64,000 nt of DNA. It comes from Hyalangium gracile. Lineage in GTDB: Bacteria > Myxococcota > Myxococcia > Myxococcales > Myxococcaceae. The position numbers and the translations under genes are program-made. The first letter of the stretch is position 1. Every line of letters begins with the position of its first letter. Location of the stretch: NCBI RefSeq assembly GCF_020103725.1, contig NZ_JAHXBG010000001.1, forward strand, positions 1 through 64,000, in the 5' to 3' direction. Below, in pieces: positions 6,796 through 64,000 of the stretch. Below the pieces are notes generated by a model, which saw nothing but the letters and a program-made list of their open reading frames with translations, ran no database searches and was not told the origin of the DNA.

Positions 6796-6816
6796 CGGCC
6801 TGGAGTGACCACCTCA

Positions 6817-7506: not shown

Positions 7507-7540
7507 AGCCATCATCCCCCACTTCAACCGCCCATCATGG

Positions 7541-7567
7541 GGCTCCCGTCTCATCCCAGCGGGAGCC
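7541..7567. terminator. Hairpin between convergent genes
   Basis: GGCTCCCG (7541-7548) and CGGGAGCC (7560-7567) form a perfect 8-bp stem with an 11-base loop, between the stops of the LysM gene and the phosphoesterase gene. There is no strong T-tract, so it may be a bidirectional terminator or an mRNA end stabiliser. Confidence 0.5.
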
Positions 7568-7628
7568 TCGTGTCATTTCTGGAGTCCGGCAGGCCGAGCG
7601 CGCTCGCCCCGCGGGGCTGGAGCGGCGC

Positions 7629-9162: not shown

Positions 9163-11238
9163 CTACTCCCGCCGCCGCAGCCGCGCCGCGCCCAGCCCGA
9201 CGAGCAGCGCCAGGGCGCCCATCCCCGCGCCCGGAGAGGCGCCACAGCCACAGCCCGCCTCGAGCACCTGGGGGGACTTCACCTCGAAGCGAGTCTCGCC
9301 GGAGGAAGCGCCCGCGAAGCCATTCTGGTCCCAGGCACGGACGATGGCGCCGTGAGCGCCCGGCGCGAGCTTCTGCGCATCGGTGAGCGTGTAGCGGAAG
9401 CGCCGCTGATCATCCAAGGGCACGCGGGCCACCTCGGCGCCGTCCACCTCGATGCTCACGGAGGCTCCGCTGGGGCTCATGCCCGCGAACGAGGTCAGCG
9501 CCTCCACCGCCTCGTCCTGCATGGGGACGACCAGGATGGGCGCGTCTCCGAACAGGCCTCCATCCCCGGTGGAGCCTCCATCCGGGGTGAAGCCTCCATC
9601 CGGGGTGGAGCCTCCATCCGGGATGCCGCCATCGCCTGGGTCTGCTCCCACGTCGAACTGGTTGACCGTGGAGCGCGGGCTGTAGGCGCCGAACACCTCC
9701 GCCGAGGCCTGCAGCGTGTGCGCGCCCGGAGCCATGTCCAGCGGCGGCTCGTACGTGAACACGCCCGAGCCGCCCGCCACCACCCGCGTGTAGGCCTCGC
9801 CATCCAGGAACAGGTGGACGACGACACCAGGATCCGCCGCGCCCTCGATGTGAGGCCGCCGGGGCAGCCCCGTGGCCCCGTTCGCGGGCTGGGTCAGCGT
9901 GGGCGTGGCAGGCACCTGGTACGGCAGCGGGTACTGCTGCTCGTCGCCCTGGGAGTCGCCGCTGTTGACGGAGTCCGGTCCCGCCCCATTGGTGTCGCCC
10001 GTCACCGTCGACTGTCCGCCGAGCCCGGCGACGACCGAGGTCTGACAGCTGATGGGATTGCCTTGCAGGAAGATGATGCCGCCGCCGCCCCCTCCGCCGG
10101 GGCCGGACGCATTGTCGGGACTCAGGGCGTCTCCTCCCGCCCCTCCCGACGCCCGCGCCAGGTTGCAGCTCAGCCCCTGCGCGGTACGCAGGGAGATGAA
10201 GCCTCCCGCGCCACCGCCTCCAGCTCCGTCATCGAGCGAGGACGCGGTGTACGTCCCCGTGGCGCCCATCGCGCTGAACAGACCCGCGCCGGAGATCTCC
10301 GACGCGCGGATGAGGATTGCTCCTCCTCCGGCGCCGCCCGCCGTCTTGGCATCCACATGCCCACCTCCGCCGCCGCCTCCACCTCCGAAGAGGAGCTGCT
10401 CGTAGGGCAGGTAGGCCACGCGCGCTCCGCCCAGACCGCCCCGCTCACTGTTGCTCTCGACGGTGAACCCGCCCTTGCCGCCGATGCCGGCGTGGCCTCC
10501 TCCGGCGCCCCCGGAGTTGTGGCACACACCGCTCCCGCCGCCGTTGGCCAGGTTGCCCCGCCCGGACGCGGCGCCGAAGCGCCCGGCCACCACGCTCTCT
10601 CCTTTATAGGAACCGCCGTTGCCGGCAGCCTCATCGAGCGAGATGCATTGCTCGAGGTTGGGGTGGTTCACGAAGGCGCCGCCGCGAAAGCCCGCGCCAT
10701 CCGCGACGATGGCCCCCTCCACGGTCACCCGCCCCGTGGCCAGCAGGGCCACGATGCCGCCCACGCTCCCATTCCAGGGCAGGGCCCTCACGGACGCTCC
10801 CGCGCTCACCCGGAAGGTCGTGTACTCGGGCACGCTCACCACCTGCGACACGTTCGCCGCGTAGCTGTGCTGCAGCGGAGCGGTCAGCACCAGCCCGGTG
10901 TCGCGCACGCTCTCCACCCGTGCGTACTCGAAGCGCCCCACGGGGCCGCTGCTGAGGTTGATGGGGCGCTGGTCTCCCGAGACGGGCGCGGGCTGCAGGC
11001 CCGCGGCCTGATGGATGAGCACCAGCCCTCCCACCGTGAAGAGTCCTGAGTTGGTGAGGGTCAGCTCCTTCGTCCCCGCCGGCGCGCTGAGGGTGAGCTG
11101 CCCGTAGCGGTTGATGACCGTGTTGGGAGCATCCACCCGCAGGGAGCCATTCCGGCCTGTCCCCAGCCCGAAGGTGTCCGGCTCAGCCAGCGCCGCTCCC
11201 GAGACGAGCAGGCCCAGCAGGAAGAGTTGGATCCGCAT
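9163..11238 (-). CDS. Secreted surface protein with Gly-rich region, Ig-like domains and MYXO-CTERM tail (AgmC-like)
   Basis: 691 residues, ATG 11238. Signal peptide MRIQLFLLGLLVSGAALA. Residues ~130-430 are extremely Gly-rich ([25 protein letters not shown]), as in AgmC-like gliding-motility surface proteins. One Ig-like domain follows (~460-540), then an Asp/Gly repeat linker (PDGGSTPDGGFTPDGG), another Ig-like domain, and a C-terminal MYXO-CTERM sorting signal: GCGCG, a hydrophobic stretch GALALLVGLGAARL, then RRRE. In myxobacteria this tail directs proteins to cleavage and surface anchoring. Naming it AgmC would need a database match. A small hypothetical gene starts 45 bases beyond its start, same strand. 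Confidence 0.8.
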   Translation of the reverse strand: MRIQLFLLGLLVSGAALAEPDTFGLGTGRNGSLRVDAPNTVINRYGQLTLSAPAGTKELTLTNSGLFTVGGLVLIHQAAGLQPAPVSGDQRPINLSSGPVGRFEYARVESVRDTGLVLTAPLQHSYAANVSQVVSVPEYTTFRVSAGASVRALPWNGSVGGIVALLATGRVTVEGAIVADGAGFRGGAFVNHPNLEQCISLDEAAGNGGSYKGESVVAGRFGAASGRGNLANGGGSGVCHNSGGAGGGHAGIGGKGGFTVESNSERGGLGGARVAYLPYEQLLFGGGGGGGGGHVDAKTAGGAGGGAILIRASEISGAGLFSAMGATGTYTASSLDDGAGGGGAGGFISLRTAQGLSCNLARASGGAGGDALSPDNASGPGGGGGGGIIFLQGNPISCQTSVVAGLGGQSTVTGDTNGAGPDSVNSGDSQGDEQQYPLPYQVPATPTLTQPANGATGLPRRPHIEGAADPGVVVHLFLDGEAYTRVVAGGSGVFTYEPPLDMAPGAHTLQASAEVFGAYSPRSTVNQFDVGADPGDGGIPDGGSTPDGGFTPDGGSTGDGGLFGDAPILVVPMQDEAVEALTSFAGMSPSGASVSIEVDGAEVARVPLDDQRRFRYTLTDAQKLAPGAHGAIVRAWDQNGFAGASSGETRFEVKSPQVLEAGCGCGASPGAGMGALALLVGLGAARLRRRE
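9557..9628. repeat. Four 18-bp tandem repeats
   Basis: Four near-identical 18-base units (CCTCCATCCGGGGTGGAG type) start at 9557, 9575, 9593 and 9611. They encode the DGG-S/F-TP linker of the surface protein. The unit is a multiple of three, so copy changes keep the frame. Confidence 0.85.
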
Positions 11239-11283
11239 GGGGCCATGCTGCCCCAGCTTGCCAAGGGAGGTCGAGCCTGGGGG

Positions 11284-11793
11284 TCAGCTCCTCGACGATC
11301 CCTCGGCGATCGGAGCCAGGTCGCGCGCGTTCACGGGAGCGAAGAAGGACTGGCGCAGCAGGCGCGGCAGGGCTCGCTTGTCCACGCACAGCAGCTGGAG
11401 CGCATCCATCCACTCGCCGAGCACGGCGATGGCGCGGACGTCCGGGGCTTCCCGGTAGAGATCATTCATGTTGTGGACGAGCGCGCTCAGGTCCTCCACC
11501 TCCCAGCGCTCGGTGTTCTCGCCGACGAGCACGTGCAGCTCCAGCGTACGGCGCTCACGCACATCCACGAGCTTGAAGCCCCGAGCCGCGCCACCCATGG
11601 CCTGGGTGAGCGGGCCGACGAGCTCGTCCGGCCGCACACCCAGCGCGACGGAGAGGCCCCCGTGGAGCAGGCCGGCGTCGCACAGGCGCAGCAGGGACAC
11701 CTCTGGCGGCTCGCCGGGAACGAGCACCTCGGTGACGGCCGCGCGGTCCTTCAGGAGCCGCTCTCGGGCCAGCAGATCGGGCAGGGAAGCCAT
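11284..11793 (-). CDS. Conserved hypothetical protein
   Basis: 169 residues from ATG 11793 (starts MASLPDLLARERLL); a GTG three codons upstream is possible. No signal peptide, no membrane segment. Visible stretches are EVSLLRLCDAGLLHGGLSVA, GFKLVDVRERRTLELHVLVG and LSALVHNMNDLYREAPDVRA. The overall alpha/beta layout recalls small domains without catalytic motifs. It lies between the methyltransferase and the MYXO-CTERM gene on the same strand (108- and 45-base gaps), so co-transcription is possible. Function unknown. Confidence 0.7.
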   Translation of the reverse strand: MASLPDLLARERLLKDRAAVTEVLVPGEPPEVSLLRLCDAGLLHGGLSVALGVRPDELVGPLTQAMGGAARGFKLVDVRERRTLELHVLVGENTERWEVEDLSALVHNMNDLYREAPDVRAIAVLGEWMDALQLLCVDKRALPRLLRQSFFAPVNARDLAPIAEGSSRS

Positions 11794-11901
11794 GGCGCGC
11801 ACCCTACCCCCGCCGCGACGGAAGCGGGATGGCGCAGAGCGCTCCAGGCACCGGCAGGCGACACACCCCGACGTGGGGATGGGCCAAGGGAAGGCCCTGG
11901 C

Positions 11902-12681
11902 TCAAGGGCGTGTGGCCAGGAGGGCGAACACGCGGTGGGGAATGGAGAGCGGATCCCGCGGAAAGCGCGCGGAGAGGAGCGCGGCGTGAGCCTCGTCGAA
12001 GCGGGCGACCTGGTCGTTCGGGAGCGAGCCTCCCACCTTCGCGCTCGCGCGGACGCGGCCTCGCCAGCCCTCGTGGGTGTAGGGCACGTCCACGTCGAAG
12101 GAGAAGGACTGCAGGCGGACGAACCCGGCGGCGCCCGCGTCCTGGAACCACTGAGGGTAGAGGCCCATGCCGTGCCCGTACCGGACGTAGGGCTGGAGGG
12201 GGCCGGGGTTGAAGGTGTCGATGAGCGCCTCGGTGGCCTCCACGACGTTCCCCGGCAGGGAGAGCCAGTCGAAGTGGGCGATGACGAGCCGGCCTCCAGG
12301 CACGAGCAGCCGCAGGGCCTCCCGGGCCGCGGCGGGCCGGTCGAACCAGTGCCAGCACTGGCCGGCGGTGACGAGCTCGAACGCGCCGGAGGTCTGCTCG
12401 GTGCGCTCGGCCGGGGCCCGCCGGTAGTCGATGGAGAGCCCCTCCTCGGAGGCGAGCCGCCGGGCCGTCTCCAGCATGGGCTCCGAGATGTCGAGCCCCG
12501 TGACGGAGCACCCGTGTCGCGCGAGCCCTCGGGCCAGCGTGCCCGTGCCCGTCCCGAGGTCCACGGCGCGCAGCCCGGGCCGCAGGACGCCCTCCTTCAC
12601 GAGCCGCTCGAAGAAGGACTCTGGGAAGCCCGCGCGGTGCTTCGCGTAGTCGTCCGCCGTCCGCCCGAAGTCCGCCTGCAT
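11902..12681 (-). CDS. SAM-dependent methyltransferase (class I)
   Basis: 259 residues from ATG 12681, preceded by AGGGAGGA at good spacing. The N-terminal DFGRTADDYAKHRAGFPESF is typical of UbiE/COQ5-type and Methyltransf_11 proteins. Motif I is AVDLGTGTGTLARGLA (SAM binding) and the acidic loop is VTGLDISEPMLETARR. Later blocks are FELVTAGQCWHWFD and LRLLVPGGRLVIAHFDW. The WHWFD block is common in small-molecule methyltransferases of this group. Substrate unknown. Transcribed divergently from the citrate synthase-like gene with 142 bases between the starts. Confidence 0.85.
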   Translation of the reverse strand: MQADFGRTADDYAKHRAGFPESFFERLVKEGVLRPGLRAVDLGTGTGTLARGLARHGCSVTGLDISEPMLETARRLASEEGLSIDYRRAPAERTEQTSGAFELVTAGQCWHWFDRPAAAREALRLLVPGGRLVIAHFDWLSLPGNVVEATEALIDTFNPGPLQPYVRYGHGMGLYPQWFQDAGAAGFVRLQSFSFDVDVPYTHEGWRGRVRASAKVGGSLPNDQVARFDEAHAALLSARFPRDPLSIPHRVFALLATRP

Positions 12682-12823
12682 GACCGTCCTCCCTGCCGCT
12701 CCGAGGTTCATCTCGACAGCAAGTCGAGTCGAGTCGACAATTCTCCCGGAGGCTTCGACAGGCATGGTGAAGCGGAGCGATGGCCGGGCTCAAGCTCGAT
12801 TCGATGATCGACATGAGGAGCTG

Positions 12824-14059
12824 ATGACGGCGGCCCAGGCGTCGGCGCTGCTGGGCGTGAAGCGGGCGACGCTCTACACGTACGTGAGCCGAGGGCTCGT
12901 GCGGTGTGTGCCCGAGCCGGGCACCAAGGAGAACCGGTACGTCCGCGCGGACCTGGAGCGGCTGAAGGCGCGGCACGACGCCCGGGCGGGGCACGCGGCG
13001 GTGGCCTCGGGAGCGCTGCGCTGGGGCGAGCCCGTCATCGACTCGTCCATCTCCCGCGTGGGGGCGGAGGGGCTGGCCTATCGCAAGCACCTGGCGGTGG
13101 AGCTGGCGGTGCAAGGGCGCTCCTTCGAGCAGGTGGCGGAGCTGCTGTGGACGGGCGAGCTGCCGGACACCGCCATGCAGTGGCCAGCGCCCGAGCTTCC
13201 GTTTCCCCCCTCGTCGCTGGTGGGCCTGCTGCCCCGGGATGCGCCTCCGCTCACCGTGCTGTCGGCGGTGATGCCGCTGCTGGCGGCGGCGGACCCCGTT
13301 CGCTTCGCCGCGCCTCCGGAGCAGGAGCGGCTCCGGGCCCGACGCGTGCTGCGTCAGCTCGGAGCGTGGGTGGGCGGAGCTCAAGGGGCGTCGCGGGTGG
13401 CGCAGGCGCTGAAGGAAGAGACGGTGGCGGCCTCGCTGGCTCGGGCGCTGGGGGTGGAGGTGAGGCGAGCGGTGGAGCCCCTCAACCGGGCGCTGGTGCT
13501 GTGCGCGGACCACGAGCTGAACGTCTCCACCTTCACGGCGCGCGTGACGGCCTCCTCCGGAGCGGACCTCTATGCGTGCGTGAGCGCGGCGCTGGCGGCG
13601 CTCTCGGGCCCGCGGCATGGCGGCGCCTGCGACCGCATCGAAGCGCTGATGCAGGAGGTGGGGCGCCCGGAGCGCGCGGCCACGGTGGTGCGCGAGCGGC
13701 TGCGGCGGGGCGAGTCCGTCCCGGGTTTCGGACATCCGCTCTACCCGGAGGGAGATCCCCGCACGCCTCCGCTGCTGGAGGTGGCGTGGGGCGTGCGGCC
13801 GGAGCCCACCGCGGTGCGCATGGTGCGCGCGGTGGTGGAGGCCATGGCCGAGGCGGGGCACCCGCCACCCACGGTGGACCTTGGACTCGTGGCACTGTCG
13901 GCGGCGCTGGGGCTGCCTCCGGGCGCGGCGGCGGCGGTGTTCGCGGTGGGGCGCGCGGCGGGCTGGGTGGCCCACGTGCTGGAGCAGCGTGAGCAGGGCC
14001 ACCTGCTGCGCCCACGTGCGAGGTACGTGGAGCCGCCTCCCCACCAGTCCACCCCCTGA
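12824..14059 (+). CDS. Citrate synthase-family protein with N-terminal helix-turn-helix
   Basis: 411 residues from ATG 12824 (GAGGAG just upstream); ATG 12764 would add 20 residues. Residues 1-50 form a MerR/excisionase-type HTH (AAQASALLGVKRATLYTYV). The rest is a citrate synthase fold with recognisable active-site blocks: ADHELNVST (His230), GPRHGG (His265), GFGHPLYP (His304) and VDLGL (Asp352). Known proteins of this HTH-citrate synthase type are annotated as citrate or methylcitrate synthases; whether they bind DNA is unclear. It stands alone, divergent from a methyltransferase, so it is probably not the main TCA enzyme. Confidence 0.82.
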   Translation: MTAAQASALLGVKRATLYTYVSRGLVRCVPEPGTKENRYVRADLERLKARHDARAGHAAVASGALRWGEPVIDSSISRVGAEGLAYRKHLAVELAVQGRSFEQVAELLWTGELPDTAMQWPAPELPFPPSSLVGLLPRDAPPLTVLSAVMPLLAAADPVRFAAPPEQERLRARRVLRQLGAWVGGAQGASRVAQALKEETVAASLARALGVEVRRAVEPLNRALVLCADHELNVSTFTARVTASSGADLYACVSAALAALSGPRHGGACDRIEALMQEVGRPERAATVVRERLRRGESVPGFGHPLYPEGDPRTPPLLEVAWGVRPEPTAVRMVRAVVEAMAEAGHPPPTVDLGLVALSAALGLPPGAAAAVFAVGRAAGWVAHVLEQREQGHLLRPRARYVEPPPHQSTP

Positions 14060-14077
14060 CCGGTCGCTGCCTGTCCG

Positions 14078-14102
14078 AACTGGTCTGCTTGTCATACCAG
14101 TT
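14078..14102. promoter_or_regulatory. Inverted repeat AACTGGT-N11-ACCAGTT, copy 1
   Basis: Perfect 7-bp arms at 14078-14084 and 14096-14102 with 11 bases between. It lies 18 bases after the citrate synthase stop and about 250 bases before the lipoprotein gene. An element with the same arms, spacing and CAT before the right arm occurs at 29682-29706. It could be a repressor operator or a dispersed extragenic element. The rest of the 291-base gap (14060-14350) shows nothing else I can name. Confidence 0.5.
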
Positions 14103-14350
14103 GGGTACCGGCCCGCGCACAGGGGGCCTCCCTGGCCGGGCAGTCCTTGGCGGAGGCGCCTCCCGAGCACCGGAGTACATCTGCTGGGGCCGATCGTTCA
14201 CCGGTTGTCATGGTTCCCCACACACAGCGCGAGGTGGCGGACGCTCCCGCGGCAGGCTCCAGCAGCCCGCACTCCCCTCCCGGAGCAGCGACACCAACAT
14301 GAGGACCGACGCACGGGCGGTCGGGGCCCGCGCCGCACCAGGAAGACACC

Positions 14351-15085
14351 ATGCCTCGTTCCTATCGCTGGCCACATCCCCTGCTGCTGAGCCTGCTGCT
14401 GGGCCTGTCATCGGCCTGCTCGGAGTCCATCGACGGGCCCGACGGGCGGCGCGATCTGCTCTTCACCTTCGACGGGAGCACGCAGGGCTGGAGCTCCGGC
14501 TTCACGGACCTGGCGCCGATCCAGGAACCGAGCGTCGACTTCCTCTTCGAGCGCCGCGAGCTCCCCACCGAGACGCAGCTCATGGGAGGCGCGCTCTTCC
14601 TCTCGGGAAGGAACGTGAGCGACGACCTCTTCATGTTCGTCGCGCACCCGGTGGAGGACCTGAGGCCCGACACGCCCTACTCGCTCGTCTTCGAGCTGGA
14701 GCTGGCGAGCAACGCGGCCACGGGCTGCACGGGCATCGGCGGCGCTCCGGGCGAGAGCGTGTTCCTCAAGGTGGGAGCCGCGAGCGTCCAGCCCGCGCGC
14801 GTGACGAACGAGACGGGCCACTACCGGCTCAACGTGGACAAGGGGAACCAGTCGGAGGGCGGCGCCAACGCGCAGGTAGTGGGAGACATCGCCAATGGCT
14901 CGACGGACTGCACCAGCCCCACCTACCGGCGCATCACCCGGGACAACCGGGACGACCCGCTCCGCATCACCTCGAACAGCGAGGGTCGGCTCTGGCTGCT
15001 GGTCGGCACGGACTCGGGTTTCGAAGGCAACACCGCGCTCTACTTCGACACGATTCGTGTCGTCCTCGAGCCGGCCGAGCAATAG
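14351..15085 (+). CDS. Secreted lipoprotein, unknown function
   Basis: 244 residues, ATG 14351 with GGAAG upstream. Signal peptide with lipobox LSSAC: hydrophobic LLLSLLLGLSSA then Cys23, followed by Ser (outer-membrane type retention signal by the +2 rule). The mature part is a beta-rich domain with FTFDGSTQGWSSGF, typical of a carbohydrate-binding-like jelly roll, and two Cys-containing loops (ATGCTGIGG, GSTDCTSP). GNTALYFDTIRVVLEP at the end matches that fold. No catalytic motif. It precedes a small membrane protein gene by 9 bases. Confidence 0.75.
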   Translation: MPRSYRWPHPLLLSLLLGLSSACSESIDGPDGRRDLLFTFDGSTQGWSSGFTDLAPIQEPSVDFLFERRELPTETQLMGGALFLSGRNVSDDLFMFVAHPVEDLRPDTPYSLVFELELASNAATGCTGIGGAPGESVFLKVGAASVQPARVTNETGHYRLNVDKGNQSEGGANAQVVGDIANGSTDCTSPTYRRITRDNRDDPLRITSNSEGRLWLLVGTDSGFEGNTALYFDTIRVVLEPAEQ

Positions 15086-53988: not shown

Positions 53989-54202
53989 GTCTGGCTCCAG
54001 CGTGAGGACCAGCGGTCCAGCCCGCCGTGTCCGCCCCTGTTACGCCGGCCGCGCCAGATATTCCGGGGACTTTTCGCGGGCCTTTTCCGCTCTCGGATCC
54101 TGAGACATGACCCTCCCCACCCGACACACCGCGCGCATACCCAGACACGCTCCTGAAACCGTGGCGAGACGTGTTCACGAGGTTTATCGATGAGACAATA
54201 AG

Positions 54203-55345
54203 TTGATACGGCTGAACGAGTTCGTCCTGGCCCCACTCCTCCCCAGAAAGGAGTCCCCAATCGCCGCTACGACTCCTGCCCCACACGCCCCCTCATGGGA
54301 AACCCTCATCCTGAGGGCCATCCCGAGCTGTCTGCTCGCGGCCGACGCGGAAGAGCGGGTCGTCTACGCCAACGCGGCGGCCATGAAGCTCCTGGGCCGG
54401 GATGAGCGCTCGCTGATCGGCACTCCGCTGCGAGAGCTGCTGCCCTTTCCCTGGGGAGTGCCTGGCCAGTCCGCGCTGGAGCTCGGCAGCAGCGAGATGC
54501 GCTTCGACGTGAAGCTGACGCCCCAGGGTGGCACCGAGCCCCAGTCCATCGGGGTCTCCTTGCTCTCGCTCCCCGCCCACCTCTACCCGCCGGGCGGGTA
54601 CGTCTGCATGTTCCGCAGCCTCACGGACTACCGACGCGTGGAGGCCGAGGCGCGCCAGGCCGAGCGCCTCATGATGATGGGCCAGTTGATGGCGGGGCTC
54701 GCCCATGAGGTGCGCAACCCGCTGGCCGCGCTCAAGAGCCTGTTGGAGGACGTGCTCCACGGCAGCAGCCCCGAGGCTCCCTTCCACGAGCACATGGTCC
54801 GCATGGAGCGCCTCGTCCGCCGGATGGAGAACCTGGTCAACACCTCGCTCCAGTTCTCCCGTCGCGGACAGGCCCGCAGGGCAAGGCACGCGCCGGCCGC
54901 GCTCGTCCACGCCGCTCGGGACGCGCTGGATCCCCGCCTGCTGCGCGCCCGGAGCCACCCGCTGGTGCTCGAGGTGCGCGACGACCTGCCAGCGGTGCTC
55001 TGCGAGGAGGGGCCCATCGTCCAGGTGCTCGGCATCCTGCTGACCAATGCGCTGGAGGCCGCGGGGAGCTCCGGGTGGGTGGGCCTGCGGGTGAGCACCA
55101 CGGGCGAGCCGCCCGCTCGCGTCCTGTTCGAGGTCGAGGACGATGGGCCGGGCATCCCCGCCTCCCTGCGGACGCAGCTCTTCTCTCCCTTCTTCACCAC
55201 CAAGCCGCAGGGCACCGGGCTGGGGCTGTCCATCGCCCTCAAGCTCGTCGAGCAGAACCAGGGACACCTGAGGTTCCAGTCGGTGCCTGGGCAGCGCACG
55301 GTGTTCACGGTCGACCTGCCTGTCGCCACGGAGGGCCCGCCATGA
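54203..55345 (+). CDS. Soluble PAS histidine kinase; start codon uncertain (TTG or ATC)
   Basis: 380 residues if TTG 54203 is used. A much better Shine-Dalgarno, AAAGGAG (54247-54253), is followed after 6 bases by in-frame ATC (54260), which would give 361 residues. Neither ATG nor GTG exists in the region. PAS domain (SCLLAADAEERVVYANAAAM), then His168 in GLAHEVRNPLAALKSL, N box LLTNALEAAG, DDGPGI, FSPFFTTKPQGTGLGLSIAL. The stop overlaps the next gene's ATG (ATGA), so its receiver partner is made with it. First gene of the PATAN/Roadblock cluster. Confidence 0.88.
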   Translation: MIRLNEFVLAPLLPRKESPIAATTPAPHAPSWETLILRAIPSCLLAADAEERVVYANAAAMKLLGRDERSLIGTPLRELLPFPWGVPGQSALELGSSEMRFDVKLTPQGGTEPQSIGVSLLSLPAHLYPPGGYVCMFRSLTDYRRVEAEARQAERLMMMGQLMAGLAHEVRNPLAALKSLLEDVLHGSSPEAPFHEHMVRMERLVRRMENLVNTSLQFSRRGQARRARHAPAALVHAARDALDPRLLRARSHPLVLEVRDDLPAVLCEEGPIVQVLGILLTNALEAAGSSGWVGLRVSTTGEPPARVLFEVEDDGPGIPASLRTQLFSPFFTTKPQGTGLGLSIALKLVEQNQGHLRFQSVPGQRTVFTVDLPVATEGPP

Positions 55346-56541
55346 AGTCCCGAATCCTCATCGTCGACGATGAAGAGGACATCCTCTGGAGCCTCCAGAA
55401 CCGTCTGGTGCGCACCATGCCCGGCGTGGAGATCCAGGGCTGCACCCACGGCCGGAAGGCGATGGAGCTGATCTCCCAGGAGGACTTCAACCTGGTCATC
55501 AGCGACGTGCGGCTGCCGGAGGTCTCCGGCATCGAGCTGCTCATCCACGCGCGCAAGCGGAACGCGCGGCTGCCCTTCATCATCACCACCGCCTACCCCA
55601 CCGAGCAGATGCGGATGGACGTGCAGCGGATGGGCTCGGTGACCTACGTGGAGAAGCCGTTCGAGCTGGCGCGGCTGGCGTCGCTCGTCAACGAGCTGCT
55701 GGAGCACCAGCGCAAGGAGGGGTTCTCGGGAGCCGTGTCGCTCGACACGCTGCCGGACCTCGTCCAGCTCTTCTGCTTCTCCAGCACCACCGGAGGCCTG
55801 CGCATCTGGCACGGCGACCAGCGCGGCGCCATCTGGTTCGACCGGGGCACCGTCGTCCACGCCGAGGCCGGCACCCTCGAGGGCGAGGCCGCCTTCTATG
55901 AAATCCTCTCGTGGGAGGGCGGCGAGTTCGCGATGGAGCGCAACGCCGCGCCTCCGAAGCGCACGCTGGCCGAGAGCGCCACCGGGCTCCTGATGGAGGC
56001 CCAGCGCCGCATCGACGAGGCCCGGCGCGCTCCCTCGCTCACGGCCGGCGGCGCTCCCCCGGACGAGTGGGCCGACTTCACCGAGGCCCCCGTGGCGGCG
56101 CCCCCCGTGGAGCAGGTGGCGAGCTCGGAGCCACCACCGGCCAGGCCGGAGAGCGTGGAGCCGCGCGTGGCAGAGGCGCTGCTGGCGGAGGCGCTCCCTC
56201 GCGTGAGCGGCATGGCGGGCTTCGTGAGCCTGTCGATGCTGCACGTGCGCGGCGCGCGAGAGGGTGAGCCCAGCGGGCCGCAGCGGGATGCCGCCGTCCG
56301 GGCGTTCAGCGAGGCCCTCGCCGCCGCGGAGCAGCTGGCGACGCAGGAGGAGCGGCTCGAGGAGATGCTCATCACCGCCGAGCACCACCACCTCTTCCTC
56401 GCGGCGCGAGGGACTCACGGTGGCTTCTTCCACCTGGTGATGGAGCGCTCCGCCGGCAACGTCTGGCTGGCGCGACTCACGTTGAAGGAAGCAGGGCCTC
56501 ACGCCCAGGCCTCGCAGGATCCCGCGGGAGGAAGTCGATGA
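55342..56541 (+). CDS. Response regulator with PATAN (DUF4388) and Roadblock-like output
   Basis: 399 residues, ATG 55342. Receiver: LIVDDEEDI, Asp55 in VISDVRLPEVSG, switch TTAYP, Lys105 in VEKPFE. Residues ~123-225 form a DUF4388/PATAN domain (GFSGAVSLDTLPDLVQLFCF, GAIWFDRGTVVHAEAG, EILSWEGGEFAM). After a Pro/Ala linker comes a Roadblock/LC7-like segment (RVSGMAGFVSLSML, EMLITAEHHHLFLAA), resembling the next gene product. No DNA-binding domain, so output is by protein contact. Overlaps both neighbours by ATGA. Confidence 0.87.
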   Translation: MKSRILIVDDEEDILWSLQNRLVRTMPGVEIQGCTHGRKAMELISQEDFNLVISDVRLPEVSGIELLIHARKRNARLPFIITTAYPTEQMRMDVQRMGSVTYVEKPFELARLASLVNELLEHQRKEGFSGAVSLDTLPDLVQLFCFSSTTGGLRIWHGDQRGAIWFDRGTVVHAEAGTLEGEAAFYEILSWEGGEFAMERNAAPPKRTLAESATGLLMEAQRRIDEARRAPSLTAGGAPPDEWADFTEAPVAAPPVEQVASSEPPPARPESVEPRVAEALLAEALPRVSGMAGFVSLSMLHVRGAREGEPSGPQRDAAVRAFSEALAAAEQLATQEERLEEMLITAEHHHLFLAARGTHGGFFHLVMERSAGNVWLARLTLKEAGPHAQASQDPAGGSR

Positions 56542-56921
56542 AGAGCACGCTCAAGGCTTCTCTCGAGCGGCTGTCGGGCCTGGACGGCTACATCCGCTCG
56601 TGTGTCGTGGACGGAGAGAGCGCCACGCTGCTCGCCAGGCACGGCGCGTCCCCGCCGGGAGATCCCCAAGCCGCGACGGCCGCGCAGATTACCCTGCTCC
56701 AGGCCCAGCGCCGGGCGCTCCAGGCGTTCCAGCAGGACTCCTCCAAGCTCGCGGGCGAGCTGGACGAGACCCTCATCACCGTGGGCCGGTACTACTACCT
56801 CATCCGTCCCTCACGGGCGCGGGCCTCGGTGTTCGTCTCCGTGGTGCTGGACCGGGAGCGCGCCAACCTCGGTCGAGCCCGCCTCGCGCTCTCCACCGTG
56901 GAGCAGGGCCTGAGCCTCTGA
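56538..56921 (+). CDS. Roadblock/LC7-like small protein
   Basis: 127 residues, ATG 56538 overlapping the regulator stop. LKASLERLSGLDGYIRSCVV then DETLITVGRYYYLIRPSRAR and FVSVVLDRERANLGRARLAL: the alpha-beta layout of Roadblock/LC7 proteins, which bind small GTPases (MglB type) or each other. Sequence is divergent, so the call is by pattern and by likeness to the C-terminal part of the preceding regulator. No GTPase gene is in the window. Confidence 0.7.
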   Translation: MKSTLKASLERLSGLDGYIRSCVVDGESATLLARHGASPPGDPQAATAAQITLLQAQRRALQAFQQDSSKLAGELDETLITVGRYYYLIRPSRARASVFVSVVLDRERANLGRARLALSTVEQGLSL

Positions 56922-57015
56922 GCGGCCCGGGGGCTCCCTCGGGCTCCCTGCGCCGCACCTGGCGATGGTGGACAGGCCCGAGCAGGCTTGAGACGCTGGT
57001 GACGAACGGAGCTCA

Positions 57016-58338
57016 ATGGCGGAATCGCGCGACGAGCAGGCGAGCAGCGGAGCCGACACGGTGCTGTCTCTGCGCCGCTTCGGCGTGTCCTTCGGCTTGA
57101 AGGTGGTGCTGGCGGAGGTCGACCTGGAGGTGCCGGCGCGAGGCGTCGGGGTGCTCCTGGGGCCTGGCGGGGCGGGCAAGTCCACGCTGCTGCGCACCGT
57201 GGCGGGCCTCAATGACATGCAGCCAGAGCTGGCGGTGTGGGGCAGCATCTCCTATCAGGGCGCGCCGCTGTCCCCGAGCCACCGTCCCTTCCTCATCCTC
57301 CAGAAGGCCCGCCTGCTCGGCTCCACCGTGCGCGAGAACGTCATCTCGGCGCTCCCCCACCGGGATCGGCTCACGCCCGGGCAGCAGCGGGAGTTCATCG
57401 TCGAGCTGCTCACCCGCCACGGTCTGCCGGAGCTCGCCCAGGCCCAGGAGCGCGGCGTGCTGGAGCTGCCCCTGGGCGTCCAGCGCCGGCTGCTGATCAT
57501 CCGCGCGCTGTGCGCCTCACCAGCGCTGCTCATGGCGGACGAGCCCACCACCGGCCTGTCCGAGCAGGATGCGCAGGCGGTGCTGGAGCTGCTGCGGCTC
57601 CAGGGCCAGGAGCGCGCCGTGCTGGTGGCGCTGCACCACCAGGGCCACGCCCGGGCCGTGGGACAGTGGTGTGCCCTGCTGGCCGGCGGGCGCATCCAGG
57701 AAGTGGCGCCCACGCACGACTTCTTCTCGGCGCCTCGGAGCAGGGCCGCGCGCAGCTTCGTGGACACCGGCAGCTGCTCGGTCCCCAGCCCGGATGCGCA
57801 GCCCGCGGACCTCTCTCCCGATGAGGCTCCGCCGCCCCCTCTGCCCCCGCAGGCCCGCGACGCGACGGTGGCGGCCTCGCGCGGTCCCCGAGGCTTCTGC
57901 TGGCTGCTGCCCGGCCTGCTGGGAGGCACACCCCGTCCCGGCATCGTGTCCTCGCTGGAGGAGGACCTCCAGGCGCTCACCCGGGTGGGCATCCAGGTGC
58001 TCATGGGGCTCGAGGAGGAGCAGCACTTCCAGGTCCTCCCCGAGCTGGGCATCGACTACCTGCGCTTCCCCATCCCAGACATGCGCGCGCCCTCCTTGGA
58101 GGAGGCCCGACGGTTCTGCCAGGAGGTCGATCGACGGCTGGCCGCACGCCAGCCCGTGGCGGTGCACTGCCGCGCGGGGCTCGGCCGCACGGGCACCATG
58201 CTGGTGGCCTACCTGGTCTGGAAGGGGCACGCGGCCCGCGAAGCGCTCGAGCAGGCTCGCGGCATCAACCCGCGCTGGGTGCAGTCCGAGGATCAGCTCC
58301 GGTTCATCACCGAGTTCGAGTCGTGGCTGAAGGCCTGA
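57016..58338 (+). CDS. Fusion of ABC-type ATPase and dual-specificity phosphatase
   Basis: 440 residues, ATG 57016 (GGAG at 5 bases). Residues 15-240: ABC ATPase most like PstB, with Walker A LLGPGGAGKST (Lys55), Q-loop LILQKARLLGSTVREN, a degenerate signature ELPLGVQRRLL in place of LSGGQ, Walker B LLMADEPTTGLS and His switch LVALHHQGH. After a Pro-rich linker, residues ~305-440 are a DSP: acid Asp355 in FPIPDMRAPS, and HCRAGLGRTG with catalytic Cys385 and Arg391. No membrane or permease gene is near. A soluble ATP-dependent phosphatase or signalling switch is possible. I do not know of this domain pair. Confidence 0.88.
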   Translation: MAESRDEQASSGADTVLSLRRFGVSFGLKVVLAEVDLEVPARGVGVLLGPGGAGKSTLLRTVAGLNDMQPELAVWGSISYQGAPLSPSHRPFLILQKARLLGSTVRENVISALPHRDRLTPGQQREFIVELLTRHGLPELAQAQERGVLELPLGVQRRLLIIRALCASPALLMADEPTTGLSEQDAQAVLELLRLQGQERAVLVALHHQGHARAVGQWCALLAGGRIQEVAPTHDFFSAPRSRAARSFVDTGSCSVPSPDAQPADLSPDEAPPPPLPPQARDATVAASRGPRGFCWLLPGLLGGTPRPGIVSSLEEDLQALTRVGIQVLMGLEEEQHFQVLPELGIDYLRFPIPDMRAPSLEEARRFCQEVDRRLAARQPVAVHCRAGLGRTGTMLVAYLVWKGHAAREALEQARGINPRWVQSEDQLRFITEFESWLKA

Positions 58339-58680
58339 GCCATACCTGGACCCATACACTCCAGGACAGCCCCGTCCGGAGCTGATCGCCTGTCATTGGC
58401 GCCAGCGTGGGCGAAGCCTGCTGAGGCAGAACGCTACACATTGCCCCGCACGCATCGCGCTCGCGAGCCCATCTCGCGGAAATCCTTGGTGGAATCCGGG
58501 CGGACCGGCTCAGTGAGGCAAAAAGTCTCGCTGCACACCACGGGCGCGCACTGCGGACGTTCGGGAAGCTCCCAGACACAGACATTCCGCAGGTTTGAAA
58601 GACAAGCAAGGTCCGGCATCCCGGTTGCTAAGGCTCTGGATCGTGCACTGGCGTGAGAGTGCGAACGATTGGAGGTCCAT
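58339..58680 (+). other. 342-base intergenic region with a sigma-54-like promoter
   Basis: Splits the cluster into two transcription units. CCTGGA (58345-58350)/TCCAGG (58360-58365) right after the fusion gene is a weak hairpin. A sigma-54-like box lies near the 3' end (listed separately). Short frames here do not look coding. The middle could hold activator sites; I see no clear inverted repeat there. Confidence 0.5.
58613..58629 (+). promoter_or_regulatory. Sigma-54-like promoter for the second half of the cluster
   Basis: CCGGCATCCCGGTTGCT: GG (58615-58616) and GC (58627-58628) are exactly 10 bases apart, with GGCAT at -24 and TTGCT at -12 against TTGGCAC-N5-TTGCT. Predicted start about 58640, 40 bases before the GTG at 58681. 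Confidence 0.6.
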
Positions 58681-59736
58681 GTGTCGCTTCAGGCTGTGAC
58701 GGGACTCGAGCCTCGAGAGGACTCCTCGCCTCGCACCAGACTCCATCTGACGGTGGTGCCTCGCGACGGAGCGAGCGTGCAGCCGACGCACAAGGGCTTG
58801 CTGGCACCCCGCGTGATGCAGGCCCTGAGCGAGGGGCTCGCGCACGCGGACGGGGGAGAGGTCGTCGTCCGCGCGGGAGAGGAGATCGGACACATCTATC
58901 TCCACAAGGGGAGCATCGCCTGGGTGAACTGCTCACGGGCCCGGTCGCGCGCACGGGACACGCTGCTGGCGAACTCGGCCATCACCGCCGAGGACCTGGA
59001 CGCCGCGCTGCAGGAGTCCCAGCGCACGCGGCAGCACCTCGCCGAGACGCTGCTGACCTGGGGGCTCATCGAGCAGAAGCAGCTGTGGCAGTGCCTGCGC
59101 CTGCACAACGCCCATCACCTGAGCGCCCTCACGGAGCTGCAGCACGAGCTCCAGGCCATCTTCGTACCGCTGGCGCGCACCTACTCCGCGGGCGTGGGCT
59201 TCACGCTGGCGGAGCTGCTGGAGCCCCACGAGGTGCCGGCGGAGCTCGCAAGCGTCCTCCTGGAGGAGCCCGCCCCGGTGGTGCCGCTGGCCTCGCCCAG
59301 GTGCTGTGCCTTGGAGCACGCGGAGGCGGACCACGCCAGCGTGGGCAAGCGGCTGGCGGCGCTGCTGCCCCCGGGCGCGCTCGCGGGCGCGCTGCTGGAC
59401 ATGGATGCCCGGCATGTCTGCGGACAGCGCTCCCTCATGCCAGCGCTGGAGCCCGAGCTGGGCAGCATCACCGGCTGGCTCATGGAGGTGCTGAGCGCTC
59501 GGGCCGAGCCGTCCGGCGCGCTGCCTCGCGAGGTGCTGCTGGTGGCCGAGGACACCGTCCACGTGCTGAGCCGCTGCGAGGCGCACCCCTCGGTCTACCT
59601 GTGGATGATGTTCGACGGCGCCACCAACGTGGGAAGCGTCCTGGCCCGCTGCCACCTGACGCTCAGGAGCCTGGTCGAGGAGCTCTTCGTGGCGCCGGCC
59701 AAGCGCTCGGAGCGCGGGGAAGGAGGCCAGCCATGA
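58681..59736 (+). CDS. PATAN (DUF4388)-like and Roadblock-like protein
   Basis: 351 residues from GTG 58681 (GGAGG at 5-6 bases); a TTG at 58669 overlaps that Shine-Dalgarno and is unlikely. Residues ~20-150: DUF4388-like (GEEIGHIYLHKGSIAWVNCS, DLDAALQESQRTRQHLAETL). C-terminal ~120 residues are Roadblock-like (GALLDMDARHVCG, EVLLVAEDTVHVLSRCEAHP, YLWMMFDGATNVG). No signal peptide. Overlaps the VOC gene by ATGA. Same domain types as the regulator at 55.3 kb, so it is likely a partner. Confidence 0.75.
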   Translation: MSLQAVTGLEPREDSSPRTRLHLTVVPRDGASVQPTHKGLLAPRVMQALSEGLAHADGGEVVVRAGEEIGHIYLHKGSIAWVNCSRARSRARDTLLANSAITAEDLDAALQESQRTRQHLAETLLTWGLIEQKQLWQCLRLHNAHHLSALTELQHELQAIFVPLARTYSAGVGFTLAELLEPHEVPAELASVLLEEPAPVVPLASPRCCALEHAEADHASVGKRLAALLPPGALAGALLDMDARHVCGQRSLMPALEPELGSITGWLMEVLSARAEPSGALPREVLLVAEDTVHVLSRCEAHPSVYLWMMFDGATNVGSVLARCHLTLRSLVEELFVAPAKRSERGEGGQP

Positions 59737-60377
59737 TCTTCGGCCTCAGCCACGTGGACGTGCCGGTGACGAACCTGGAGGCGGCGCTGCGGCTGTACGG
59801 CGGAGGGCTCGGCTTCTCCGAGCGCCGGCGCGGGCCGGGCTTCGTGGACCTGGATGGAAGCTCCTGCCTGCTGCGCCTGGTGGAGACGCGCCAGGTGGAG
59901 CACCCCGTCACGCTGCGGCTGTCGGTGGGGGACGTGGAGGTGGTAGCCCGAGCCCTGACGGACGCGGGGGCCCGGGAGCTGTACGCGCCCATGCGGATGG
60001 AGGGTGAGTTCCTGGCGCAGGTAGCGGACGCGGACGGCAACGCCCTCATCGTCTGGCGCGAGCTGAGCGAGGACGAGCGCGGGGTGGTCCCCGCCCTCCC
60101 GACGGAGCTCACGTGGGAGCCGGAGGCCGAGGAGCTGCTCAAGTCCCTGCTGCAGCGGGTGCCCGTCTTCTTCCGCGCGATGGCCCGGCGCCGGGTGACG
60201 GCCAACGCCGAGCACCTCGCCAGCGCCACCCGCCGCGTCGAGCGGCTGCACGTCATCCGCTCCTACGTGCTCTCCAGCGCCCGCGTCACGCGCTACCGGC
60301 TGCGCAAGCCGCTGCAGGAGCACGGCATCTCTCCCGATGACTTTCGCGAGGAGTTCGAGTGCGAGGAGCGGCTGTGA
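59733..60377 (+). CDS. VOC-fold protein with PCP_red-like C-terminal domain
   Basis: 214 residues, ATG 59733 overlapping the previous stop, with AGGAGG upstream. Residues 1-115: VOC half-module pair (SHVDVPVTNLEAALRLYGGG, FVDLDGSSCLLRLVE, LAQVADADGNALIVWR). Residues ~125-165 match the helical PCP_red domain seen in light-independent protochlorophyllide reductase B subunits and other proteins: LTWEPEAEELLKSLLQRVP, VFFRAMARRRVTANAEHLA. The rest is helical and basic. A ligand sensor whose tail gives protein contacts is one reading. The pairing looks unusual. Confidence 0.75.
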   Translation: MIFGLSHVDVPVTNLEAALRLYGGGLGFSERRRGPGFVDLDGSSCLLRLVETRQVEHPVTLRLSVGDVEVVARALTDAGARELYAPMRMEGEFLAQVADADGNALIVWRELSEDERGVVPALPTELTWEPEAEELLKSLLQRVPVFFRAMARRRVTANAEHLASATRRVERLHVIRSYVLSSARVTRYRLRKPLQEHGISPDDFREEFECEERL

Positions 60378-60515
60378 CCCCGACCACAGCGTAGCCGCAC
60401 TCGAACGCCTCTACCTCTTGAAGCAGGGCCACGGACGCATGGCGAGGGTCTCCGCGGCCACAGCTCCCTCCTCACCACCCCACCTCACGCCACACATAGA
60501 AAGCGCAGGCACACG

Positions 60516-60920
60516 ATGTCTCTCGAGAAAGCGTTGGTTACGGCCCAGACCCAGGTCCCGGAGTGTGTCGCGGTCGGCTACGTCGACATGAGCACCGGGA
60601 TGCTGCTGGGCTCCAAGACCGTGGACTCCCACCCCGCCGAGGTGCTGGACCTGGTGGCCGCCGCGACGGCCGACCTGTTCCAGGGCCCGAGCGTCTCGAC
60701 CATCGAGAAGCTGTTCCGGCGCTCGCGCGGGCAGCAGGAGGATGGCCGGCACTACTTCCAGGAGATCTTCGTGATGAGCGAGAACCTCCTGCACATCTTC
60801 ATGCGCGGGAAGAAGAACCCGTCGCAGGCCGTCTGCTTCGTCTGCCGTGCGTCGGTAAACATCGGCATGGCGCTCTCCAAGAGCCGCCAGGCGCTGCCCG
60901 CGCTCGAAGCCTCCGTCTGA
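60516..60920 (+). CDS. Roadblock/LC7-like small protein
   Basis: 134 residues, ATG 60516. Pattern CVAVGYVDMSTGMLLGSKTV, ATADLFQGPSVSTIEKLFRR, EIFVMSENLLHIFMRGKKNP, AVCFVCRASVNIGMALSKSR fits the beta-alpha-beta-beta-alpha Roadblock fold. It lies 138 bases after the VOC gene and is probably read with it, or from its own promoter. It could form homodimers or pair with the other Roadblock-like domains of this cluster. Sequence is divergent, so the family call is moderate. Confidence 0.65.
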   Translation: MSLEKALVTAQTQVPECVAVGYVDMSTGMLLGSKTVDSHPAEVLDLVAAATADLFQGPSVSTIEKLFRRSRGQQEDGRHYFQEIFVMSENLLHIFMRGKKNPSQAVCFVCRASVNIGMALSKSRQALPALEASV

Positions 60921-61035
60921 CAGCGGCTGGAGGCACCGCTGCACGCCTGCCTACCTGGGTCACACGCACGAGCCCACGTCTCGCCGATCCGATGGGTTCT
61001 TTGCTTCTGTTGATCACTGAACATACTGCCCGTGC

Positions 61036-64000
61036 ATGAAACTCCACGGACAGTTGCGCGGCCCCCACGGCACGGATTTCTCCTCCCTCGAGCTCTTGCT
61101 GGGACAGAAGCTCGAAGCCCCCCTCTTCACCGGCGAGGTGACGAGCCCCCAGGGGGACTTCCTGTTCAAGGGGCTCACCTCCTCGAAGCTCCCCTATCCC
61201 CTCACCCTGTTCGCCCGGCTGGAGGGAGCCGTCGTCGCGCAGCGGAGCTTCCCCGACAAGCCCTCGCTGGACGCGGTGTTGATCGCGGAGAGCAAGCCCC
61301 TCGAGGAGGCCCGGAGCGTCGTCCTCGAGCTGCCGCCACCCGCCGCCGTCGAGAAGATGGAAGTGCTCGCGCCCACCCACGCGAGCAGGGCGGGAGTGGT
61401 GTTGGCGGAGGCGCCCGTCTTCACAGTGACGGACGCGGTGAAGGGCCCGTCCTCGAGCGGGACGATCCAACCCGTGAGCAGCGCCACGGCGGCCACGGCG
61501 GCCACGGCGGCCACGGCGGCCATCGCGGACGAGCTGCAGCTGTGCACGCTCCGAGGCACGGTCCTCAGCACCCGGGCCGGCGAGTCCATCGCCGGCTACA
61601 TCCTGGAGCTCTCCTGTCCGGACACCATCGCGCTGGATGACAAGGCCACCCCCATCCACCGGCAGCTGGTGCTGGGCCACAACGGCGGCTTCCAGGTGGA
61701 CTTCGTCGCCGCGGGCCGCTTCTCCGAGAGCCCCCTCACCCTGGTGGTGCGCACCCCGAACGGCCTGCCCGCGCGCATCGTCTCGCCGCAGCAGCTCACG
61801 CTGAAGCAGGCGCTCAAGCTCCCCTCGCTCGAGGTGACGGTGGAGCCCTTCACGCCCCGCGTCGTCGCCGCGAGCCCCAGCGCCCCGGCGAGCACCCGCG
61901 TCCTGAAGGGCCGGCTGGTGGACCGCGCCGGCAAGGCCATGAAGAGCCAGCAGATCATCTTCTACGGCCAGCACCTGGGAGCCAACGGCGAGCCCGTGGA
62001 CGTGCCCCTGACGACGGTGAGCACGCAGGCGGGCGGCAGCTTCTCGGCGGTGGTGCCCAACGCGCCGTTCACCGGCGCCTACGCGGTGGCGGCCACGCGC
62101 CCGGACCAGCCGTGCCCCCTGCTCCTCCAGGCCGATGGCCACTTCCCCGCCTTCACCCAGCTGGTCATCGAGGCCCGGCCCACCGCCGAGGGAGGTGACG
62201 AGGACTGCGCCTGCCATGAGCCGACGCCGCGCCTGCCGGGCACCGAGGAGCTCGTCTCCGGCGAGTCCAGCTACTCGCAGGACATCGGCGGGGCGTGCGT
62301 CAACTTCACCGTGCCCAACCGGACGCTGGAGGAGTTCAGCCACTACGCCATCGTCCGGACCACGGATCCGCGCGGCCAGCTCGTCCCCATCGGCGAGAGC
62401 CCGCCGTGGGAGTGGAACGGCAACCCGGCGGACACGGCCGGCTACGCGAAGCACCTGCACCGCACCCTGCGGCAGACGCTCGGGCCGAAGAACCCCCTGC
62501 GCTGGGACGACGACGCCACCGGCTTCGAGCTCTACCAGGCCGTCACCCTGGCCCACGGCCACGTGCTCCACTTCAAGCAGACGTTCAAGGCGGACGGCTA
62601 CTCGATGGGAGACCTGCTCTACTCGCTGCCCCTGGCGCCCGGGCAGAAGAAGCAGCTCGTCATCTACGACTGGAACCGCACCGAGGAGGCCTCGCGCGAG
62701 GAGAGCTCCTCCGTCCAGGAGCAGCTCAGCCACAGCCTCTCCCGGGACCGCGACATCGACGAGATCCTCAGCGGCACGATGAGCGAGTCCATGAAGGGCG
62801 GCAGCAAGGCGCGCACCCGGGGCTCCTCCTTCGGGCTGGGGCTGGCCGGCAGCGGGAGCAAGGACGGGGTGTCCCTGGGCCTGTCCACCGGCTTCAACAT
62901 CTCCGGCGGCTCGGGCACCTCGTCGGCGTGGCAGGACAGCACCCGCGACATGACGTCCACCCTGCACAACCGCCTGCGGGACGCCACCATGCAGGCCACC
63001 TCCGCGGTGCGCAGCCAGCGGGCCACCGTCGTCACCAGCGCCCGCCAGGGCGAGACGTTCTCCGTGCAGACGGAGGTGGTGGCCAACCACAACCACTGCC
63101 ACGCGCTGACCATCCAGTACTTCGAGATCCTCCGGCACTTCGTCGTCCAGCAGGAGCTGGTGGATGTGCAGGAGTGCCTGTTCGTCCCGCTGATGATGAG
63201 CCGCTTCACGGACGCGAAGGCCCTCCGCTGGCGCGAGTGCCTGGCCGAGCACCTGCTCTACGCCCCGGAGACGCCCAAGGGCCAGGAGCTGCTCAAGGGC
63301 TTCGAGGCCCTCGAGCGCATCTCCCGCGGCTACCAGGGGGTGGACTTCCCGCAGCGCCGCGAGGCCAACGGGAGCGTGACGTTCCTGCCCTTCTGCGAGG
63401 AGGCCGTGGAGGATGTCTTCGGCGAGTTCCAGCTCCAGTTGCACCTGCACCGCCCGGCCGACCAGCAGGACGGCTCGCTCGACATCGCCACCTGGGCCCC
63501 CCTGTCCACCGTCTTCCGCGGCCTGGACATCAACGGCATCCGCAACCGGCTGCACGGGCTGACGGCGCAGGAGAAGGATCGCGTCTTCCAGGAGAAGCAC
63601 GCGCCCGCCATGGCCCGCAACTTCGTGGAGCAGCTGCGCATCGAGGCCATCCTCGCGGACGGGACGGCGGTGAGGGACCTCAAGCTGGACTGCACGCTGC
63701 TGACGGACTACGCGCCGGGGCGGCTGCTCACGGTGTCGGTGCGCTCCACGCGCCTGCAGGACACCAAGGCGCTGGCGGCGGGGGTGAGCCGCCAGGGCTT
63801 CTCGGGGACGCCCACGGACCTGCGGCGCAGCCAGATCGTCGGCCTGCGGCTGCTGTCCCCCAGCCTGAGCCTGTCGGGCAGCTTCGCGGTGGTGGAGCGC
63901 GGCACGCTGCGCTACCGGACGCGCCACCACACCGGCGTGCTGCTCAACAACCGCACCATCCGCAACGACATCGCCTTCGCCGATCAGATCTTCCTGCCCA
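61036..64000 (+). CDS. Very large hypothetical protein (3' end beyond the window)
   Basis: Open from ATG 61036 to the window end, 988 codons without a stop. An in-frame stop at 61018 means no earlier start. No Shine-Dalgarno is visible. No signal peptide. Parts: N-terminal beta domains (GQLRGPHGTDFSSLELLLG; VLKGRLVDRAGKAMKSQQII, carboxypeptidase-regulatory-like), Cys-containing DEDCACHEP, then a conserved-looking core SLPLAPGQKKQLVIYDWNR, SVQEQLSHSLSRDRDIDEIL and a Gly/Ser-rich stretch, ATMQATSAVRSQRATVVTSA, NHCHALTIQYFEILRHF. I recognise the general style from large myxobacterial proteins of unknown role. I assign no function. Confidence 0.85.
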   Translation, partial: MKLHGQLRGPHGTDFSSLELLLGQKLEAPLFTGEVTSPQGDFLFKGLTSSKLPYPLTLFARLEGAVVAQRSFPDKPSLDAVLIAESKPLEEARSVVLELPPPAAVEKMEVLAPTHASRAGVVLAEAPVFTVTDAVKGPSSSGTIQPVSSATAATAATAATAAIADELQLCTLRGTVLSTRAGESIAGYILELSCPDTIALDDKATPIHRQLVLGHNGGFQVDFVAAGRFSESPLTLVVRTPNGLPARIVSPQQLTLKQALKLPSLEVTVEPFTPRVVAASPSAPASTRVLKGRLVDRAGKAMKSQQIIFYGQHLGANGEPVDVPLTTVSTQAGGSFSAVVPNAPFTGAYAVAATRPDQPCPLLLQADGHFPAFTQLVIEARPTAEGGDEDCACHEPTPRLPGTEELVSGESSYSQDIGGACVNFTVPNRTLEEFSHYAIVRTTDPRGQLVPIGESPPWEWNGNPADTAGYAKHLHRTLRQTLGPKNPLRWDDDATGFELYQAVTLAHGHVLHFKQTFKADGYSMGDLLYSLPLAPGQKKQLVIYDWNRTEEASREESSSVQEQLSHSLSRDRDIDEILSGTMSESMKGGSKARTRGSSFGLGLAGSGSKDGVSLGLSTGFNISGGSGTSSAWQDSTRDMTSTLHNRLRDATMQATSAVRSQRATVVTSARQGETFSVQTEVVANHNHCHALTIQYFEILRHFVVQQELVDVQECLFVPLMMSRFTDAKALRWRECLAEHLLYAPETPKGQELLKGFEALERISRGYQGVDFPQRREANGSVTFLPFCEEAVEDVFGEFQLQLHLHRPADQQDGSLDIATWAPLSTVFRGLDINGIRNRLHGLTAQEKDRVFQEKHAPAMARNFVEQLRIEAILADGTAVRDLKLDCTLLTDYAPGRLLTVSVRSTRLQDTKALAAGVSRQGFSGTPTDLRRSQIVGLRLLSPSLSLSGSFAVVERGTLRYRTRHHTGVLLNNRTIRNDIAFADQIFLP
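61483..61518 (+). repeat. Four 9-bp tandem repeats (GCCACGGCG)
   Basis: Four identical GCCACGGCG units at 61483, 61492, 61501 and 61510 inside the giant ORF encode an Ala-Thr-Ala linker. The unit is a multiple of three, so copy number can change without frameshift. Confidence 0.9.

Follow-up and report, generated by a model that had tools for sequence, protein, structure and literature searches.

A 64-kb stretch of the Hyalangium gracile genome (Myxococcota; contig NZ_JAHXBG010000001.1, positions 1 to 64,000), referred to below as the window, contains a cluster of seven plus-strand genes, labelled A–G. An earlier note on this DNA described the cluster as a candidate signalling system comprising a histidine kinase, PATAN and Roadblock-like proteins, and a fusion of an ATP-binding cassette (ABC) ATPase with a dual-specificity phosphatase (DSP). 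A check of the sequence found all seven genes where they had been placed, as listed below with the evidence for each assignment.

54203..55345, plus strand: A, soluble histidine kinase with PAS, HisKA and HATPase_c domains, TTG start uncertain (Pfam, motifs, identity to the relative L129)
55342..56541, plus strand: B (P0002), receiver, DUF4388/PATAN and a C-terminal Roadblock-like region (Pfam, identity to L129, alignment with the P0003 family)
56538..56921, plus strand: C (P0003), stand-alone Roadblock-like protein, 127 aa (family and profile comparison)
57016..58338, plus strand: D, ABC-ATPase/DSP fusion (Pfam, catalytic motifs)
58669..59736, plus strand: E (P0005), PATAN-like region with a helical insertion and a C-terminal Roadblock domain (Pfam, predicted structure)
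59733..60377, plus strand: F, VOC domain with a DUF2621/PCP_red C-terminus (Pfam)
60516..60920, plus strand: G (P0007), core Roadblock protein, 134 aa (predicted fold, homologues across phyla)

The three ATGA overlaps reported previously are indeed present, at 55342 (A/B), 56538 (B/C) and 59733 (E/F). Translation of E probably starts from GTG at 58681, which is preceded by GGAGG, instead of TTG at 58669.

G and D constitute a conserved core pair recurring across phyla. G is found in 12 of 195 Myxococcota genomes, and scanning of about 85,000 species genomes with G yielded 69 loci, mostly in Myxococcota, with others in alpha-, beta- and gammaproteobacteria, Planctomycetota, one vicinamibacterium and one actinobacterial metagenome-assembled genome (MAG); in most relatives across phyla the identity of G is 57–76%. 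Neighbouring open reading frames (ORFs) were clustered, and profiles built from the clusters were searched against ORFs of the loci, partners being counted within 7 kb of G in the 51 well-flanked loci, that is, those in which G has 4 kb or more of sequence to either side. In 48 of the 51, G has an ABC(-DSP) family protein nearby, with 37 scored as the full fusion; these counts, like those of other partners, depend on how we picked the ORFs and on seeding with G only, and unrelated transporters may account for some of the "ABC" matches. G and an ABC-DSP protein of 420–530 aa lie on the same strand in all 39 loci that have both (window included), usually 0–300 bp apart. Other partners in the well-flanked loci are GTPases (25 loci, dynamin-type ones counted), a second Roadblock protein (22), PATAN proteins (17), ferredoxin/globin proteins (14) and VOC proteins (10). 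The gene association is thus kept far beyond close relatives in the neighbourhood comparison that the earlier note had suggested; the grouping proposed there is real, while the core pair of D and G had been overlooked, and the cluster in the window is an atypical representative of a larger system.

The Roadblock fold of G is predicted with high confidence, as the model built from 13 homologues has a mean predicted local distance difference test (pLDDT) value of 90, and its best PDB matches are Ragulator subunits, a Streptomyces Roadblock protein and MglB (E about 1e-7 to 1e-6, template modelling score about 0.7). This fold search succeeded where searching of solved structures by sequence, with the G and C families, returned nothing meaningful; G has no Pfam match, and neither Pfam, NCBIfam nor PADLOC gave a family for G or C. 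For E the prediction is of moderate confidence, with a mean pLDDT of 71 and a C-terminal a-b-b-a-b-b-b-a domain matching Ragulator and MglB structures. In the N-terminal part of E there is a helical stretch weakly resembling MshE (NF053729, 1.1e-8, below the cut-off); possible c-di-GMP binding by this stretch was dropped, as the match is below the cut-off and the RLG motif was not seen in it.

C and the C-terminus of B appear related to Roadblock proteins by homology. Comparison of family profiles aligns C with G (E 2e-6, probability 89%), and the C family gives weak LAMTOR5 matches. This family is common in myxobacteria, where it often follows a PATAN region within one fusion protein; in Myxococcus relatives, a single open frame encodes an E-like PATAN region and, after it, the C-type domain. 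The C-terminus of B, in turn, aligns with the C family (27.8% over 410 aa in L084). Out of the four Roadblock-like regions reported earlier, G is hence strongly and E moderately supported by models, C by its match to the G profile, and B by homology alone; where tested, the regions are consistent with the Roadblock fold.

The second member of the core pair, D, matches ABC_tran (1.8e-14) and, in its other half, the DSP/protein tyrosine phosphatase (PTP) family Tc-R-P (5.9e-24). Alignment of seven orthologues shows that Walker A, Walker B (DE, with the catalytic Glu) and the H-loop are invariant in the ABC half, as are the catalytic residues of the phosphatase half, with its HCX5R motif (HCRAGLGRTG) and the general acid D355; the pattern HCxAGxGR[TS]G is found in 51 of 62 clustered proteins. 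The canonical LSGGQ signature is not found in D, which has LPLGVQ at this place, and it is similarly degenerate in other fusions. The two halves belong to the same domain families as the PstB-type ABC ATPases and DSP/PTP-SAK phosphatases, from which D differs in that the halves are fused, the signature motif is degenerate, and Pfam identifies among A–G no permease family of the kind encoded alongside an ABC transporter. These features are easier to reconcile with a signalling ATPase than with a subunit of a transporter. The ATP-dependent phosphatase role proposed for D, with ATP controlling the phosphatase half, is an inference, as both halves retain their catalytic motifs but the ABC signature is non-canonical. 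In L115 (6325–9903), downstream of a large histidine kinase, an ABC-ABC-DSP protein is encoded as a single chain, the expected outcome if two ABC halves pair. In the alphaproteobacterial locus L134 (737–4077) a separate intact phosphatase adjoins an ABC protein in which Pfam detects no phosphatase towards the C-terminus.

A and B constitute a two-component pair, a HisKA/HATPase kinase and a receiver protein with phospho-acceptor sites in both. A matches PAS, HisKA (7.9e-10) and HATPase_c (3.6e-23), and has the H-box GLAHEVRNP, the G2 box GTGLGLSIA, and the N and G boxes. B matches Response_reg (2e-20) and DUF4388 (1.6e-19), the latter being the domain called PATAN in the earlier note, and contains the receiver motifs SDVRLP and EKPF. 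L129, in a vicinamibacterial (acidobacterial) MAG, represents the system best in minimal form; here genes for a histidine kinase, a receiver-PATAN protein, a Roadblock protein, a G homologue, an MglA-like GTPase and an ABC-DSP fusion are contiguous on one strand (6622–13052). The kinase is 36% identical to A over 351 aa, the receiver-PATAN protein, 45% to B over 226 aa, and the G homologue, 62% to G. This gene row shows A and B to be part of one system with D and G, bearing out the earlier grouping of the two-component proteins with the Roadblock/ABC-DSP part.

GTPase profiles built from the relatives found no GTPase in the 64-kb window, as had been claimed for the cluster; the arrangement characteristic of MglAB, a Ras-like GTPase within a few genes of a Roadblock gene, is thus not observed in the window. 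The GTPases near G in the relatives fall into three classes. In 18 loci they are short and CvnD-like, with the motifs TTVAMDYG and G(T/A/L)PGQ; in 12 loci they are MglA-like (best PDB match MglA, E 1e-24) and carry a C-terminal extension; and in three alphaproteobacterial loci they are pairs of dynamin-like proteins. In the Ruegeria plasmid locus L197, the G homologue has four genes of the dynamin family around it, as well as genes for a Ser/Thr kinase and an FHA protein. Elsewhere in the genome of the window, three MglA-like GTPases are encoded: one in an MglBA pair on contig C39, a SofG-like one on C17, near PilT-like genes, and one of 389 aa with a C-terminal extension on C48 (contig C48 of G000, 13211–14374). 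The latter was considered as a dedicated partner of the cassette, but this is unsupported: all seven genomes of the genus encode it, with or without the cassette, to which it is therefore not tied. The earlier proposal of a signalling network therefore stands as regards a signalling cassette, but not as regards its working without a GTPase, given the GTPase genes in 25 of 51 relatives and the three MglA-like proteins in this genome.

F matches VOC (1.3e-6), DUF2621 (8e-9) and PCP_red (2.1e-5, below the curated cut-off). Its family is present at 12 of the relatives' 69 loci, and among Myxococcota genomes strong matches occur only in those that carry G. Proteins of another cluster (cluster 2, 19 loci) combine Bac_globin, 2Fe-2S ferredoxin (Fer2), FAD and NAD domains in various ways, and are possible redox or gas sensors. 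Ferredoxin(-FAD-NAD)-globin proteins adjoin the Roadblock/ABC-DSP pair in L145, L138, L139, L101 and other loci. Ser/Thr kinase-cNMP proteins are found at nine loci. A test of VOC proteins and GTPases as mutually exclusive alternatives gave no significant result (Fisher p 0.29).

The whole cluster is located in an accessory segment, which the earlier note had overlooked. Homology to the same-genus genome G006 extends as far as window position 54070 and starts again at contig position 66694, the two flanks being about 30 bp apart in G006. Besides A–G, the segment holds another large gene, which begins within the window:

54071..64000: window part of the 12.6-kb segment absent from G006, which extends to about contig position 66693
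61036–64000, continuing to about contig position 66057: giant protein of about 1,670 aa, in the same segment

As neither G nor F is present in any of six same-genus genomes, gain of the segment in this genome is favoured over loss in G006. The giant protein has no Pfam match in the 988 aa scanned, and relatives 67–68% identical to it are encoded in five Myxococcota genomes lacking the cassette. It was rejected as a member of the system, since its relatives occur mostly in cassette-free Myxococcota genomes and one genome that has both (G149) carries them on separate contigs; it is probably a separate passenger.

Our tentative reading, to which we give somewhat less than an even chance, is that the products of the cluster form an ATPase-phosphatase switch under Roadblock control, with G and D as the core, A and B as input, F as a possible further input, and C and E as adaptors. 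In such a switch, the cytosolic PAS kinase A would phosphorylate the receiver B, which would re-sort the PATAN/Roadblock partners, and a dimer of G, alone or as a heterodimer with the Roadblock domains of B, C or E, would dock on D at its ABC half. Two such halves, pairing under the drive of ATP, would then open or close the phosphatase half, which would strip phosphate from Ser, Thr or Tyr of a target. F may replace or supplement the globin or ferredoxin-reductase-globin proteins of other clusters, which hints at a redox signal or a small molecule as the cue. A GTPase, if needed here, would be MglA-like and encoded elsewhere in the genome; the target of D and the part played by a GTPase acting in trans are conjectural. 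In favour of this reading are the pairing of G with ABC-DSP proteins, the predicted folds of G and of the E C-terminus, the catalytic motifs retained in D, the ABC-ABC-DSP chain of L115, the gene row of L129, the globin partners, and correlated pairwise distances of ABC-DSP and the CvnD-like GTPase (r 0.89) and of Roadblock and GTPase (r 0.78). A stronger version, possible but rather doubtful, is that the ABC ATPase-phosphatase is itself the NTPase controlled by this Roadblock family, with an ATP switch replacing a Ras-like GTPase or standing above it, in a redox- or gas-responsive pathway patchily distributed over several phyla.

Several observations weigh against the switch centred on G and D. 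To our knowledge, Roadblock proteins with known targets control GTPases, not ABC ATPases, and both the contact between G and D and the activity of D are predictions from sequence. In the window D and G are separated by a gap of 2.2 kb containing E and F, unlike in nearly all relatives. G homologues lack ABC-DSP in L160, L161 and L165, and none is listed for L197 (Ruegeria plasmid pTHAF33_a; G homologue, 44%); as the scan was seeded with G, the frequency of ABC-DSP without G is not derivable from it. The pairwise-distance correlation of Roadblock and ABC-DSP proteins is weak (r 0.28, Mantel p 0.029, 39 loci), as is that of Roadblock and VOC (0.38), the value for Roadblock and ferredoxin-globin being 0.81; all such correlations can arise from shared species history alone.

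It is also quite possible, though not probable, that the true centre is a small GTPase, with the Roadblock proteins acting as regulators of the GTPase-activating protein (GAP) or guanine nucleotide exchange factor type, as in MglAB and conservons, the ABC-DSP protein being accessory and the GTPase acting in trans here. The roles of MglB and CvnB are established (PMC4316618, PMC9481161), and the GTPase genes of three kinds in 25 well-flanked relatives, together with the three MglA-like proteins in the genome of the window, agree with this; however, about half of the well-flanked loci lack a nearby GTPase, among them seven of the ten that carry a VOC gene, and the C48 GTPase occurs throughout the genus regardless of the cassette. 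That A–C and D–G are two independent modules joined by chance in the accessory segment seems unlikely: most relatives have no histidine kinase or receiver-PATAN gene adjoining G, and relatives of C are common in G-free genomes, but A, B and C are ATGA-coupled directly upstream of D, PATAN proteins are encoded near G in 17 of 51 loci, and the same parts are contiguous in another phylum, in L129, with 36–62% identity for the kinase, the receiver-PATAN protein and G. An anti-phage or other conflict system would account for the patchy distribution and accessory location, and the best Pfam family of the phosphatase is named after polymorphic toxin systems; we nevertheless consider it very improbable, as PADLOC gave no meaningful match, its matches being generic ATPases or receivers, and no toxin, nuclease or membrane effector is found among A–G.

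Some elements of the proposed switch have known counterparts. A Roadblock-containing GAP complex is known (PMC9481161), and PATAN proteins near MglB-type genes have been noted before (PMC4316618). The MglA/MglB polarity module of Myxococcus, with RomR, RomX and RomY, shares with the cassette Roadblock-fold regulators and a receiver protein upstream in the signal path; the cassette differs in lacking a GTPase in cis, in that G belongs to a family without a Pfam match, and in the pairing of G with an ABC-DSP fusion, which is undescribed for MglAB. The actinobacterial conservon (CvnA-D) similarly combines a histidine kinase and a Roadblock protein in one operon, and many relatives of the cassette have a CvnD-like GTPase with the GxPGQ motif, whereas among A–G there is neither a DUF742 (CvnC) match nor a GTPase, and ABC-DSP, PATAN and VOC are extra. 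Group 3 MglA systems, described by Wuichet and Sogaard-Andersen (PMC4316618), comprise a GTPase, one or two Roadblock proteins and a receiver-like protein, but there it is a receiver/winged-helix protein, and ABC-DSP and globin components are unmentioned (PMC4316618). The globin-Roadblock fusion HGbRL of Methylacidiphilum shows the same link as globin genes in cassette relatives, but is a single fusion protein of one genus with no ABC-DSP described (PMC4476040).

The cassette has the appearance of a widespread signalling switch, and we found no published account of it: in the literature covered, exclusive of subscription papers and most preprints, there was no description of an ABC-DSP/Roadblock pair, and a search on DUF4388 together with Myxococcus gave none either. 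Cultured relatives in Pseudomonas, Variovorax, Polaromonas and Myxococcus make genetics feasible. If our reading is true, the small and highly conserved G family without a Pfam match, the ABC-DSP fusions, the PATAN adaptors and the globin and ferredoxin-globin proteins would constitute one testable signalling system. Roadblock control, known for GTPases, would then extend to an ATPase that carries a protein phosphatase in the same chain, and dephosphorylation would be linked to nucleotide switching and two-component input.

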